Shown: piece by piece, positions 11,360 to 16,316 of the stretch
Layout of the letters: every line of letters starts with the position of its first letter
Numbering within the stretch: position 1 is the stretch's first letter
DNA from: Symmachiella macrocystis
Lineage (GTDB): Bacteria; Planctomycetota; Planctomycetia; Planctomycetales; Planctomycetaceae
Direction of reading: 5' to 3'
DNA length: 64,000 nt
NCBI RefSeq assembly: GCF_007860075.1
Contig: NZ_SJPP01000001.1
Coordinates: forward strand, 3,011,490 to 3,075,489
Translations under genes and position numbers: made by a program
Notes under the pieces: generated by a model
Databases searched by the model: none
Told to the model about the DNA's origin: nothing
What the model saw: only the letters and a program-made list of their open reading frames with translations

Positions 11360-14284
11360 CTATGACCCACCCAATTGGGCGACAATGGTTTCGATACTCT
11401 CCAGCTGTTTTTTCAGGCCCGCCAACGTCTCGCGAACATCGTCGACAACCTCCGCCGGAGCGCGGTCCACGAAATTCTTGTTGGCCAGTTTCTTCTCATG
11501 GCCGCCAATATGCCCGCGGAGTTTCTCCGCTTCCGCTTTTTGTCGCTCCAATTCCTCTCCCAGGTCGACAATTCCTTCGAGTGGGACAAATCCATCCGCA
11601 TCGGTCAACGAAAAACTCGCCGACGCCGGGGGAGGATCGATGTCCGGTCCGGTAGCGGCCAACTTCGTTTTGGCCAAATTGTCGAATTGCGGGGCGACAT
11701 CATCCAGTTCCGCCGCGACCTCCGCGGGGCAACGGACGTGCAGTTGCAGTTCAACCGCATTGGCGATGCGATACACCGCCCGCAGGTTGCGGACAGCGAC
11801 AATCGTTTCCTGCAGCCGCGCGAACCGCGATTCCAACCCTGCATCCTGCCAGTCGAGCGGGAACTCAGGATACGAGGCAATCATGCAACTCTCGGCCGCC
11901 GGTTGTGGCGAGAACAAGCCTCGCTGCGGCGCGATTTCATTCAGCCGCGCCCAAAGCTCTTCTGTCAGGAAGGGAGTAAACGGTGCCAACAATCGGACAA
12001 TGCCATCTAGCACCCCCACCAAAATTCGCTGTGTCGAGGGTTTTGCCTCTTCATCGCGCAGCCGTGGTTTGACCATCTCGACGTACCAGTCGCAGAATTC
12101 ATTCCAGACAAAATCCCGCAAGGCACGCGTCGCCGCGTCGAATTTGTATTCGCTCAACAGCGCGTTGATTGACTCGGCCGTCCGCGACAACCGACTGAGA
12201 ATCCAACGGTCTTCGACCTGCAATTCGTCCTGGGCAATCTCGCCGGGTGTATAGCCTTCGAGGTTCAACATGGCGAACCGAGCGGCGTTCCACAGCTTGT
12301 TGCAGAAATTACGGCCGTATTCAAACCGCTCGCTAACGATCCGCGCGACAGGTTCTCCCTCGTCGGGATCGAACCACGGGCTGGAAAACTGTGAACTCTT
12401 CTTGCACTGCTTGCATGTGACGCGCGGTTTCGCACCGCCGTCGGGAGTCGCTTTTTGATTCTTGAGCGTCTGCGGAATCAACCCGCCGCAATGGGGGCAT
12501 TCGTAGTCGACCGGAATCTTGACGTCCTGGCTTTCGCCAGCGAACGAGGCGATCGTAAACCGCATCGCATCGGTGCCGTATTTGTCGATGATGTCCAACG
12601 GATTGACGCCGTTTCCTTTGCTTTTGGACATCGTTTGGCCGAAGGAATCCAAAATCTTGGGATGGATATGAACATGCGCGAAGGGAACGTCGCCCATGTT
12701 ATACAACCCCATGATGACCATTCGCGCGACCCACAACGTAATAATATCGCGACTGGTGATCAGCACATTGCCGGGATAGAAATAGTCCAGGTCTTTGGTC
12801 TGCTCCGGCCAACCGAGCGTCGCATGCGGCCACAGGGCGGAGCTGAACCACGTGTCGAGAACGTCCGGATCGCGAACCAATGTGTGTTCAGCGCCGAGCT
12901 CATCTTCGGCAAGATCGGTTTCGCCGCAAATCAACCACGTCGTATCATCCGTGGCACGGCGATAGGTGACATCCTCGCGTTCACCGAAGGCGGCTTGCAG
13001 ATCCGCTTCACTACAAGTATCGCAATACCAAATCGGAATCTGGTGTCCCCACCACAATTGGCGACTAATGCACCAATCCCGTTTTTCACCTAGCCAGTCG
13101 TTGTAGGTTTTCGCATACCGCGCCGGATAGAAGCGAACGCGACCATCGTCAACCGCATCAATCGCCGATTGTGCCAAGTCCTGCATGGCGACGAACCATT
13201 GGTCGGACAAATAGGGTTCAATCGGTGTCTTACTGCGATCGCTATGCGCGATCTCAATATCGCGGTCCTCAATCTTGATCAGATGTCCCGCTGCCTCCAT
13301 ATCGGCAACAATTTTCTTGCGAGCCTCGTATCGGTCCAACCCTTCATAGGGAGCACCGTTCTCGTTGATCGTGCCGTCATTGTTGAGGATGTTGATGACC
13401 GGCAGATCGTTGCGCTGGCCGCAAGCGTAGTCGTTATGGTCATGCGCGGGAGTGACTTTGACCGCTCCCGTGCCGAGTTCCTTGTCGACCAAAATTCCAT
13501 CGGCAATGATCGGAATCTCGCGGCCGGTGACCGAAATGCTGACCTTTTTGCCGATCAGATGCGCATAACGTTCATCGCTGGGATGAACGGCAATCGCCGA
13601 GTCGCCCAACATCGTCTCAGGCCGCGTTGTCGAAAACGCGAGAGTCTCATCGCTGCCAACGACCGGATAAGTGAAGGTCCAAAAATGGCCGGGAACCGTC
13701 TCGTGAAACACCTCGTCATTGGCGACCGCGGTTTGCAGGAAGGTATCCCAATTGACCAACCGCTTCCCGCGAAAGATCAATTCATCACGAAACAACTTGA
13801 AGAACGTCTTGCGCACAGCGGCCGAGCACATGTCGTCGAGCGTAAACCGAGTCCGCCGCCAATCACAACTAGCCCCCATCTGTTTCAGTTGGTTGAGAAT
13901 GCGAGCTTCGTATTGGTCCTTCCATTTCCAAATCCGCTCGACCAGCGCTTCGCGGCCAATATCATGTCGCGAGAGCCCCTCTTCTTCAAACATCCGTCGT
14001 TCAACGACCGACTGTGTGGCGATTCCGGCATGATCCGTGCCGGGCATCCATAGCGCCTCAAAGCCCTGCATCCGCCGCCAGCGGGTGATCAGGTCCTGCA
14101 ACGTCCCGTTGAGCGCATGCCCCATGTGCAGCGCGCCGGTGACGTTCGGCAGTGGGATCATGATTGTATGCGATGGCTTATCCGGATCAGGATCGGCATC
14201 AAACCGGCTGTCCTGTTCCCACTGCGAATACCACCGCTCTTGCGCGGCTTTCGGTTCATACTGCTTGGGCAGTTCAGTCGTCAT
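11360..14284 (-). CDS. valS: Valyl-tRNA synthetase with an inserted zinc ribbon
   Basis: A 974-residue class I synthetase that attaches valine to tRNA-Val. The HIGH box appears as HMGH in PNVTGALHMGHALN (about 47-59). The editing domain includes STTRPETMLGDSA, and the KMSKS loop is TMSKS at 551-555. A C-terminal coiled coil (about 905-974) fits the ValRS tRNA-binding arm. Unusually, about 57 residues (592-648) with CPHC (596-599) and CKQC (624-627) sit between IASFAGESQDVKI and EYGRNFCNKLWNA, where most bacterial ValRS have a short link. This looks like an extra zinc ribbon next to the catalytic loop. The rest is normal, so the enzyme should be functional. Confidence 0.96.
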   Translation of the reverse strand: MTTELPKQYEPKAAQERWYSQWEQDSRFDADPDPDKPSHTIMIPLPNVTGALHMGHALNGTLQDLITRWRRMQGFEALWMPGTDHAGIATQSVVERRMFEEEGLSRHDIGREALVERIWKWKDQYEARILNQLKQMGASCDWRRTRFTLDDMCSAAVRKTFFKLFRDELIFRGKRLVNWDTFLQTAVANDEVFHETVPGHFWTFTYPVVGSDETLAFSTTRPETMLGDSAIAVHPSDERYAHLIGKKVSISVTGREIPIIADGILVDKELGTGAVKVTPAHDHNDYACGQRNDLPVINILNNDGTINENGAPYEGLDRYEARKKIVADMEAAGHLIKIEDRDIEIAHSDRSKTPIEPYLSDQWFVAMQDLAQSAIDAVDDGRVRFYPARYAKTYNDWLGEKRDWCISRQLWWGHQIPIWYCDTCSEADLQAAFGEREDVTYRRATDDTTWLICGETDLAEDELGAEHTLVRDPDVLDTWFSSALWPHATLGWPEQTKDLDYFYPGNVLITSRDIITLWVARMVIMGLYNMGDVPFAHVHIHPKILDSFGQTMSKSKGNGVNPLDIIDKYGTDAMRFTIASFAGESQDVKIPVDYECPHCGGLIPQTLKNQKATPDGGAKPRVTCKQCKKSSQFSSPWFDPDEGEPVARIVSERFEYGRNFCNKLWNAARFAMLNLEGYTPGEIAQDELQVEDRWILSRLSRTAESINALLSEYKFDAATRALRDFVWNEFCDWYVEMVKPRLRDEEAKPSTQRILVGVLDGIVRLLAPFTPFLTEELWARLNEIAPQRGLFSPQPAAESCMIASYPEFPLDWQDAGLESRFARLQETIVAVRNLRAVYRIANAVELQLHVRCPAEVAAELDDVAPQFDNLAKTKLAATGPDIDPPPASASFSLTDADGFVPLEGIVDLGEELERQKAEAEKLRGHIGGHEKKLANKNFVDRAPAEVVDDVRETLAGLKKQLESIETIVAQLGGS

Positions 14285-14393: not shown

Positions 14394-15986
14394 TTAGTCG
14401 GCGGCGCTCATCGCTTCGATTTTGAAATGTCCCGCATCCTTGAGTAATTTGTATTCCACACTATCGACCAGCGCCAACCAACTTGCCTCAATGACATTTT
14501 CACTCACGCCGATCGTGCTCCAAATCTCTTCTTTATCACGGCTTTCGATCACGACTCGTACACGGGCGGCGGTTCCTTCGGTGGAGTTGATCACGCGGAC
14601 TTTATAGTCCACCAGATGCATCTCCTCCAGTCCCGGATAGGCCCCGTTGAGTGCCTTTCGCAAAGCCGAATCCAACGCGTTGACCGGTCCGTCCCCTTCG
14701 GCCACTTCGTGCCGCACTTCGCCGTTGACCCGTAGTTTGACCGTTGCTTCGGTGACTGGTTGCGACTTCTGATCGGTTTCCACGTTCACGCGGTAATGCA
14801 TCCGCTCAAACATCGCTTCGTAATTGCCCGCGACCTTTTTGATGAGCAGGTCAAACGATGCTTCTGCCGCCTCGAATTGGTAGCCTTCGCTCTCCAGATC
14901 CTGCACACGCTCCAGAATCTTGGCCATCAGGTCCGCATCTTGCTCCAATTTGTATTTGGTCGCCTTGGCCACAATGTTCGACCGGCCCGACAATTCACTC
15001 ACCAGCACGCGACGCACGTTCCCCACGACCTGTGGTTCAATGTGTTCGTAACTGTGCGCGATGCGATTGACCGCATGCACGTGCATGCCTCCCTTATGGG
15101 CAAACGCGCTGGCGCCCACAAACGGCTGGTTGTTACGGAAATTCATGTTGGCCAGTTCGTAAACGTAGCGCGACAATTCGGTCAGATGCCGCACTCCTTT
15201 GCCGTCGAGTACTTCATGCTCTTGCTTCAGCGATAAATTCGCAGCAACGCAGACTAAGTCGGCATTGCCGCAACGTTCGCCGATGCCGTTGATGGTGCCT
15301 TGCACCTGCACAGCCCCCGCTGCCACAGCAGCCAGGGAATTCGCCGTCGCAAGATCACCGTCGTTATGCGTGTGAATTCCAATCGGGATTTTTAACGTGT
15401 CACAAGCGATCCCAACGGTGCGGGCAATTTGCTCGGGCAAGCTACCTCCATTGGTGTCGCACAACACCGCCATTGTGGCTCCCGCTTCTTGCGCTGCCCG
15501 AATCGTAGCTAGGGCGAACTCGGGGTTGTGGAGATATCCGTCAAAGAAATGCTCGGCATCATAGATGACCTCCCGTCCCTGCGAGACAACAAACTCCACA
15601 GAGTCGCGGATCATCGCTAGGTTTTCTGCCTCATTAACGCGGAGGATCTCCTCGACGTGCAAATCCCACGACTTGCCGACAATAGTCACCACCGGCGCTT
15701 GCGAATCGATCAAGGCTCGCATGCCGACATCATTTTCCGCCATCACACCGCGACGACGCGTCATGCCAAACGCGCACACCCGTGCATGCTTGAGTGACAA
15801 CTCCGCTGCTTGCTGAAAGTATTCGAAGTCCTTCGGGTTGGAGAGAGGATACCCCCCTTCAATGTAGTCAAAACCAAGGGCGTCCAACTTGCGCGTAATC
15901 AGCAGTTTGTCCTGCAGTGAAAAGTTCACCCCTTCTCCCTGACTGCCGTCACGGAGTGTCGTGTCGTAAAGTTGTATCCGGGCCAT
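14394..15986 (-). CDS. cimA: (R)-citramalate synthase
   Basis: A 530-residue member of the DRE-TIM metallolyase family that condenses pyruvate and acetyl-CoA to citramalate, starting the threonine-independent route to 2-oxobutyrate and isoleucine. The start MARIQLYDTTLRDGSQGEGVNFS carries the metal/catalytic motif, GIHTHNDGDLATANS has the HxH metal ligands, and the C-terminal 120 residues form the allosteric domain (NGEVRHEVAEGDGPVNALDSALRKAL). The phrase LDALGFDYIEGGYPLSNPKD is typical of the CimA-type branch rather than LeuA. A leader with an Ile-rich short ORF and a terminator precedes it, suggesting control by isoleucine supply. Confidence 0.92.
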   Translation of the reverse strand: MARIQLYDTTLRDGSQGEGVNFSLQDKLLITRKLDALGFDYIEGGYPLSNPKDFEYFQQAAELSLKHARVCAFGMTRRRGVMAENDVGMRALIDSQAPVVTIVGKSWDLHVEEILRVNEAENLAMIRDSVEFVVSQGREVIYDAEHFFDGYLHNPEFALATIRAAQEAGATMAVLCDTNGGSLPEQIARTVGIACDTLKIPIGIHTHNDGDLATANSLAAVAAGAVQVQGTINGIGERCGNADLVCVAANLSLKQEHEVLDGKGVRHLTELSRYVYELANMNFRNNQPFVGASAFAHKGGMHVHAVNRIAHSYEHIEPQVVGNVRRVLVSELSGRSNIVAKATKYKLEQDADLMAKILERVQDLESEGYQFEAAEASFDLLIKKVAGNYEAMFERMHYRVNVETDQKSQPVTEATVKLRVNGEVRHEVAEGDGPVNALDSALRKALNGAYPGLEEMHLVDYKVRVINSTEGTAARVRVVIESRDKEEIWSTIGVSENVIEASWLALVDSVEYKLLKDAGHFKIEAMSAAD

Positions 15987-16002
15987 ACGAAAACCTGTGT
16001 GA

Positions 16003-16080
16003 GTAGGTAGTAGACAGAGGGTAGTAGACAGAACAGACTCCCTATAAAGAGCTGTCTATTGTCTACCGTATACTGCCTGC
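16003..16080. repeat. TAGTAGACAG / GCCTACTGTCTAC-type repeat in the cimA leader
   Basis: Iterated TAGTAGACAG, then TGTCTATTGTCTACC and TACTGCCTGC, between the leader terminator and the cimA start. The same vocabulary recurs at 21661-21703, 24701-24711 and 51063-51080. Confidence 0.6.
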
Positions 16081-16087
16081 TGGAAAC

Positions 16088-16120
16088 AAAAAAACCCTCA
16101 GATCAAATCGACCTGAGGGT
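16088..16120 (-). terminator. Leader terminator (attenuator) upstream of cimA
   Basis: On the minus strand, ACCCTCAGGTC pairs with GATCTGAGGGT around a GATTT loop (11 bp, one G-U) and is followed at once by a run of seven T. It lies 28 bases after the leader ORF stop and about 100 bases before cimA. The position between promoter and gene, rather than after a gene, indicates attenuation. Confidence 0.85.
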
Positions 16121-16156
16121 GGAAGGTTGTGTGAAAACCGTTGGTGCTCAAGGTCG
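16109..16156 (-). promoter_or_regulatory. Possible antiterminator of the cimA attenuator
   Basis: CGACCTTGAG (16156-16147) can pair with CTCAGGTCG (16117-16109), 9 bp with a single bulged T. This pairing would take up the 5' arm of the terminator at 16088-16120. The upstream strand overlaps the stop codon of the leader ORF. Confidence 0.65.
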
Positions 16157-16243
16157 CGGGGGTTGCTCAATAATAATCTCGCCAATGCGCACGCCAATAG
16201 CGCCGCTATGAGGAGTTTGAATATCGTTTAGCAACCGAGACAT
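16148..16243 (-). CDS. Isoleucine-rich leader peptide of cimA
   Basis: A 31-codon ORF (too short for most gene finders) beginning MSRLLNDIQTPH and ending GEIIIEQPPRP. It has six isoleucine codons, all ATT, three of them consecutive (codons 23-25, 16177-16169). It starts about 45 bases after a near-consensus promoter -10 and its stop precedes a strong intrinsic terminator. Codons 29-31 plus the stop overlap CGACCTTGAG (16156-16147), which can pair with CTCAGGTCG (16117-16109) in the 5' arm of the terminator with one bulged T. A ribosome stalled at the Ile codons would leave that segment free (antiterminator); one reaching the stop codon would cover it (terminator). This is the arrangement of amino-acid biosynthetic leader peptides, and the sensed amino acid matches the CimA pathway. 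There is no strong Shine-Dalgarno. Translation is inferred. Confidence 0.75.
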   Translation of the reverse strand: MSRLLNDIQTPHSGAIGVRIGEIIIEQPPRP

Positions 16244-16287
16244 CTGAGCAATCCACGATGAAAGAGAGTCACCTGAACAGAATTCCA

Positions 16288-16316
16288 ATAATACGGCACA
16301 GAACGGAGATTGTCAA
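16288..16316 (-). promoter_or_regulatory. Sigma-70-type promoter for the cimA leader
   Basis: On the minus strand, TTGACA (16316-16311), a 17-base spacer, then TATTAT (16293-16288). This is the best promoter match seen in the window. It places the transcript start about 35-40 bases before the leader ORF. Confidence 0.8.

Follow-up and report, generated by a model that had tools for sequence, protein, structure and literature searches.

The window analyzed here, a stretch of 64,000 nucleotides from Symmachiella macrocystis, carries on its minus strand a gene for citramalate synthase (cimA, 14394–15986), whose product scores 679.6 bits against the TIGR00977 model (cut-off 450), and, after a gap of 109 nt, a gene for valine–tRNA ligase (valS, 11360–14284; above the cut-offs of NF004349 and TIGR00422) that is possibly co-transcribed with it. 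The DNA preceding cimA, read on the same strand, contains a promoter-like site (TTGACA, 17 bases, TATTAT; 16288–16316; 11 of 12 matches), a 31-codon leader open reading frame (ORF) (MSRLLNDIQTPHSGAIGVRIGEIIIEQPPRP; 16148–16243, ATG at 16243–16241 and TGA at 16150–16148), and an intrinsic terminator (ACCCTCAGGTCGATTTGATCTGAGGGT followed by seven T; 16088–16120), for which the scan gave 12 pairs (hairpin 16120–16094, T run 16094–16088). Six codons of the leader are ATT, three of them consecutive as read from the sequence (16169–16177), and these are the putative control codons. A segment enclosing the leader stop codon, CGACCTTGAG (16147–16156), is complementary to CTCAGGTCG (16109–16117), which is part of the terminator's 5′ arm and so would be shared by the terminator and an antiterminator; the assignment of both segments draws on pairing and covariation, and that of the former also on simulated stalling. 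The duplex of CGACCTTGAG with CTCAGGTCG has a predicted energy of −13.1 kcal/mol with one bulged U, and the first base of the last ATT of the triple is 15 nt upstream of the first antiterminator pair. The promoter-like site, 31-codon ORF, ATT triple, terminator, and segment overlapping the stop codon named in the preliminary description all read exactly as given there, and the one-bulge pairing that it proposed is both stable by this calculation and, as described below, covarying in the bulged register.

Single-sequence statistics differ among these parts. Two promoter-like sites were found in the 1-kb region, both upstream of the terminator in the sequence scan, against 0.6 ± 0.8 in shuffled sequences, and the number of terminators was not above chance (2 in the 1-kb region versus 1.2 ± 1.1 in shuffles). 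When the terminator was folded with its surroundings a z score of −3.4 was obtained, with none of 200 shuffles equally stable; folding of the leader also revealed strong upstream pairing (z = −3.65; 1 of 200 shuffles as stable). It is the conservation tests, on Ile leaders, pairing, and covariation, that identify the unit as more than a chance arrangement.

We searched 150 genomes of the same family and found cimA in 137; the upstream DNA of 130 loci was read and three loci were added later, with G063, G101, G110, and G147 excluded because the gene start or the upstream DNA was missing. A terminator occurs within the last 520 bases upstream of cimA in 125 of the 130 loci. Requiring an ORF to end 12–60 nt before one of at most three terminators, and counting Ile in its last 22 codons, we found leaders with at least four Ile in 107 of the 130 loci and with at least three in 119 (11 loci have no such leader), although these loci are kin (CimA is 98% identical in G066) and the counts are not numbers of independent events. 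The set includes Gimesia, which belongs to the Planctomycetaceae (L194 and L051 agree at 100% over the start of CimA). Shuffling the 150 bases preceding each terminator, with the same freedom of choice as in the count, gave 2.2 leaders with at least four Ile expected for mononucleotide and 2.7 for dinucleotide shuffles (highest replicate, 6), and 1.8 with one terminator per locus. The runner-up amino acid at the same threshold is Ser (30 of 130 loci), and Val reaches it in 19. The three loci added later have four, five, and seven Ile in their leaders. The leader stop codon lies 19–47 nt from the terminator, further DNA separates the terminator from cimA, and of 117 leaders, 103 have a promoter-like site upstream (9.6 expected from mononucleotide shuffles). 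The preliminary description had made its reading depend on Ile codons and a terminator being retained in related cimA leaders, and both are retained in 119 of the 130 loci.

The leaders favor ATT for Ile, whereas the cimA genes of the same 30 family loci favor ATC (110 ATT, 40 ATC, and 3 ATA codons in the leaders; 250, 553, and 8, respectively, in the genes). ATT is not rare in the genes of the window, however, with 12 ATT and 14 ATC codons in cimA and 31 ATT and 24 ATC codons in valS.

A covariance model of the element was searched against 15 genomes, scoring 150 of the 438–1562 first-look candidates per genome, and gave hits in 14, of which 13 had one just upstream of cimA, several of the leaders found having been part of the model. 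Among the candidates scored, the only hit in G033 lies far from cimA and G023 has none, and second hits fall just upstream of leuA in G018 and at an unplaced position in G070. The cimA locus of G023 (L004), which is from the same genus as the window, has neither leader nor terminator, and its upstream DNA differs. At three other loci (L043, L098, and L100) the terminator, by eye, directly follows the promoter-like site with no Ile-rich leader, possibly a degenerate or translation-free form of the element.

Structural conservation was examined in an alignment of 68 leaders below 80% similarity, chosen from 119. For the terminator, 94.7% of cells are paired (90.0% when shuffled) and double changes occur at 8 of 10 pairs (2.7 when shuffled). 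In the bulged register the antiterminator has 81.1% of cells paired (77.4% when shuffled) and a covariation value of 0.206 versus 0.155 ± 0.010, which none of 500 shuffles reached; two weaker measures were reached by 37 and 113 of 500 shuffles. In the unbulged register paired cells are no better than in shuffles, 266 of 500 of which reach the value. An alignment-free comparison of the stop-codon region with the 5′ arm of the terminator gave a mean of −15.6 kcal/mol over the 119 loci, compared with −14.1 ± 0.2 kcal/mol when arms were exchanged among genomes (lowest of 20 replicates, −14.5) and −9.8 kcal/mol when the segment was shuffled. In one genus (L058, L073, L077, and L080) CCCCCGG takes the place of the core CCTCAGG and the partner has changed to CCGGGGG, with pairing preserved. 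Covariation across relatives, which the preliminary description had named as a check, is found for both the terminator and the bulged-register antiterminator, and arms pair better within than between genomes.

These features suggest how the leader would operate. From the promoter-like site, transcription would start near 16281, and a ribosome would translate the 31-codon leader. When charged tRNA-Ile is scarce, this ribosome would stall on the ATT codons with its front edge just short of CGACCTTGAG, leaving that segment free to pair with CTCAGGTCG as the latter emerges, so that the terminator would not form in time and cimA would be transcribed. With ample Ile, a ribosome reaching the stop codon would mask the antiterminator segment and the terminator would form. 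On the evidence of sequence comparison, we consider it very probable that the leader upstream of cimA senses charged tRNA-Ile and acts as a ribosome-mediated transcription attenuator: it has a terminator with a U run, an ORF with control codons, an antiterminator (bulged) that excludes the terminator, and an appropriate spacing of stall and stop positions. Such a function would entail translation of the leader, termination in the cell that Ile starvation relieves, and a response of cimA expression to Ile; we infer from the conservation of the element that transcription and translation are coupled in the host.

The geometry was examined by simulated stalling: a ribosome was placed on the final Ile codon of the longest Ile run, 13 nt counted from the first base of that codon were masked, and the RNA was folded up to the point where the 5′ arm ends. 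A ribosome covers about 12–13 nt beyond the first base of the codon in its A site. A stall at Ile gave the antiterminator as the predicted fold in 118 of the 119 loci, and occupancy of the stop codon did so in 24. Of the 119 loci, 113 have 12 nt or more between the last Ile codon and the antiterminator, and 6 have less. The arrangement put forward in the preliminary description, in which a stall at Ile exposes the segment and a ribosome at the stop codon covers it, is therefore predicted across the family. Once the transcript is complete, 113 of 119 loci have the terminator as their minimum-energy fold despite a ribosome stalled on Ile, implying that antitermination would have to be kinetic, the antiterminator forming first. 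A conserved 1:2 pause hairpin has no support across the family (mean, −12.2 versus −11.6 shuffled), although L001 and L003 have a 1:2-type pairing of −14.2 kcal/mol. We considered such a hairpin as a means of keeping the terminator on without translation and rejected it because the family mean hardly exceeds that of the shuffles. Its absence counts against the classical three-hairpin subtype only; the architecture looks like a two-hairpin design.

Other amino acid genes were compared in 16 genomes, 14 from the family of the window and two from a second family of the class, f3. The leuA upstream regions (L292–L307) display a further putative attenuator built in the same way: in 13 of the 16 genomes a leader with at least five Leu precedes a terminator (0.8 expected), for example MQIHNLLSLSLLLNLLTQARS, and that of the genome of the window (L296) reads MFRFLLLNLALRLSLLTEGRG from its ATG. 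At leuA, no Ile leader was found in any of the 16 genomes, and no Leu leader at this threshold in three. Conversely, an ORF with at least five Leu occurs at 8 of the 130 cimA loci, versus 107 with at least four Ile. The match between sensed amino acid and pathway pointed out in the preliminary description is in keeping with this distribution, Ile leaders at cimA and Leu leaders at leuA. Upstream of trpE no terminator was found within 700 bases of the match in any of the 16 genomes; the same holds for hisG in 15, the remaining genome having no leader, and for ilvB 13 genomes have no terminator, with one doubtful Ile case among the other three. Two ilvB ORFs, one in L274 (5 Ile and 6 Thr) that precedes a hairpin lying 558 bases upstream and one in L285 with 4 Val, were judged to be chance or coding.

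From other families of the class, 86 cimA loci were found and 60 fetched, 17 of which have leaders with at least four Ile. Family f2, which holds Isosphaera, lacks the leader in all 17 loci and a terminator in 16. The 43 loci outside f2 include 32 with a terminator and 24 with at least six Ile plus Val in 22 codons (0.1 expected), a threshold chosen after inspection of earlier leader counts for these families. On sequence grounds f3 is probably Gemmataceae: a Gemmataceae metagenome-assembled genome (MAG), L200, is nearest to it once the family of the window is set aside (longer references inflate scores), and the L200 leader has QGVR in common with f3 leaders. Contrary to this naming, a MAG labeled Singulisphaera (L199) is identical to the f3 locus L148; Singulisphaera sp. 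GP187 is nearest to f2, and we take the label of L199 to be wrong.

Beyond the class, 20 loci from among 30 fetched (out of 54 matches) were examined, and 4 of them have leaders with at least four Ile; in one of the four, L394, the best pairing is far beyond the stop codon. Of 80 named loci, 17 have leaders with at least three Ile, some of which, such as L241 (Abditibacteriaceae), may be due to chance. A Desulfobacterota-like set (L396–L426), comprising relatives of L248 (Deltaproteobacteria) and made up of the best 30 of the matches and L398, has leaders with at least four Ile before cimA in 28 of 31 loci (1.1 expected), for example MAGNMITIIIRPIIIIEGIILVSKT in L403. Their terminator, CCGTTATCAGG, is unrelated in sequence to the planctomycete one, and their antiterminators (−16.8 versus −9.3 shuffled) often lie entirely before the stop codon. 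The occurrence of the arrangement in unrelated sequences suggests either repeated invention or very rapid sequence turnover.

Other explanations of the conserved unit can be set against these observations. The short ORF might act through its peptide, by nascent-chain arrest, or through translational coupling, with the terminator incidental; certain leaders do finish in Pro- or Arg-rich stretches (QPPRP in the window). We consider this very unlikely, as the leader peptides of the family have, by eye, little in common except Ile, the terminator and antiterminator covary, and the stop codon is 19–47 nt ahead of the terminator with more DNA before cimA. The hairpin might instead be the terminator of an upstream gene and the Ile-rich ORF a product of chance, and there are same-strand ORFs upstream in the window. 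However, the DNA before the leader varies among loci while leader and terminator are kept (by eye), 103 of 117 leaders have a promoter-like site before them, and shuffles yield two to three Ile leaders where 107 were observed, which leaves this explanation with almost no credibility.

Regulation of cimA by a T-box or a metabolite riboswitch would have precedent, since T-boxes control Ile genes in other phyla, but what is conserved here is an ORF carrying Ile codons, and the Rfam 15 covariance models (T-box, riboswitch, and leader families) gave no match at gathering score in the window and 20 chosen loci; we regard such control as exceedingly improbable. Attenuation could also be real and respond in addition to another amino acid, such as Val in other families, or to slower translation in general. 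Val is interspersed in leaders such as TVAIIATVVVITTG, and 24 of the 43 loci of other families (without f2) have at least six Ile plus Val in 22 codons; in the family of the window, Ile is far above Val (107 versus 19 of 130 loci), and a broader specificity of this kind is very improbable in our estimation.

Leader-peptide attenuation is a classical mechanism, with a well-known pairing scheme in Proteobacterial attenuators. The cimA leaders would resemble the Proteobacterial leu, thr, ilv, his, trp, and pheA attenuators in having a short translated leader, control codons matched to the pathway, and read-through set by ribosome position (PMC1183508). They differ in the gene (cimA), the two hairpins, the position of the stop codon within the antiterminator, the lack of an Rfam leader match, and the lack of a 1:2 pause hairpin. 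They also have alternative structures and leader peptides with control-codon runs in common with the Actinobacterial trp attenuators, ilvB leaders, and leuA LEU element (PMC1262725). For Actinobacterial leuA, however, that source describes a pseudoknot-like element whose pairing partner is the Shine-Dalgarno box (PMC1262725), whereas the planctomycete cimA and leuA leaders precede intrinsic terminators. The histidine leader peptides of hisS and hisZ in bacilli are a further case of attenuation outside Proteobacteria and Actinobacteria; according to a 2010 paper, leader-peptide systems had until then been demonstrated only in these two phyla, ermC excepted, and that paper adds bacilli (PMC2965389). 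The bacilli leaders concern a different amino acid, gene, and phylum, and a word search of the accessible text returned no planctomycete (PMC2965389).

Leader genes in Planctomycetes are counted in PMC4833913, for short-distance reinitiation; PMC13158618, PMC11611912, and PMC3223726 are unrelated in content. Among the papers listed in a literature search that did not extend to most subscription journals, none described leader-peptide attenuation for cimA or for planctomycetes, in line with the preliminary description, which knew of none for cimA in this group. The mechanism is already known, and the gene cimA and the phylum Planctomycetota appear to be new to it. Citramalate synthase, the entry of the threonine-independent isoleucine route, would join the genes under leader-peptide attenuation, and the mechanism would extend to Planctomycetota.

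Spatial segregation of transcription and translation in Gemmata, reported by Gottshall et al. (2014), is debated, according to the excerpts consulted (PMC6212462, PMC5394234). As attenuation needs a ribosome that follows the polymerase, the element would provide a simple genetic assay of transcription-translation coupling in organisms where separation was claimed. We put at slightly below even the chance that Ile/Leu attenuation of cimA and leuA forms a widespread planctomycete regulon that includes f3 and shows ribosomes trailing RNA polymerase closely, contrary to segregation in Gemmata; the estimate was lowered slightly in view of the one label that contradicts the naming of f3.

Downstream, no terminator- or promoter-like site was found on the same strand between cimA and valS. 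Of 30 family loci, 19 have the start of valyl-tRNA synthetase adjoining cimA, and at some others the flank is not long enough to tell. The Ile attenuator may therefore also govern valyl-tRNA synthetase levels. Between the terminator and cimA, the minus strand of the window has short repeated words of the GTAGAC/GTCTAC type (16075–16000) that are partly kept in L003, repeat-like palindromes are inserted at this position in L014, L018, and L020, and L042 has there a small ORF resembling a four-helix-bundle protein (all by eye).
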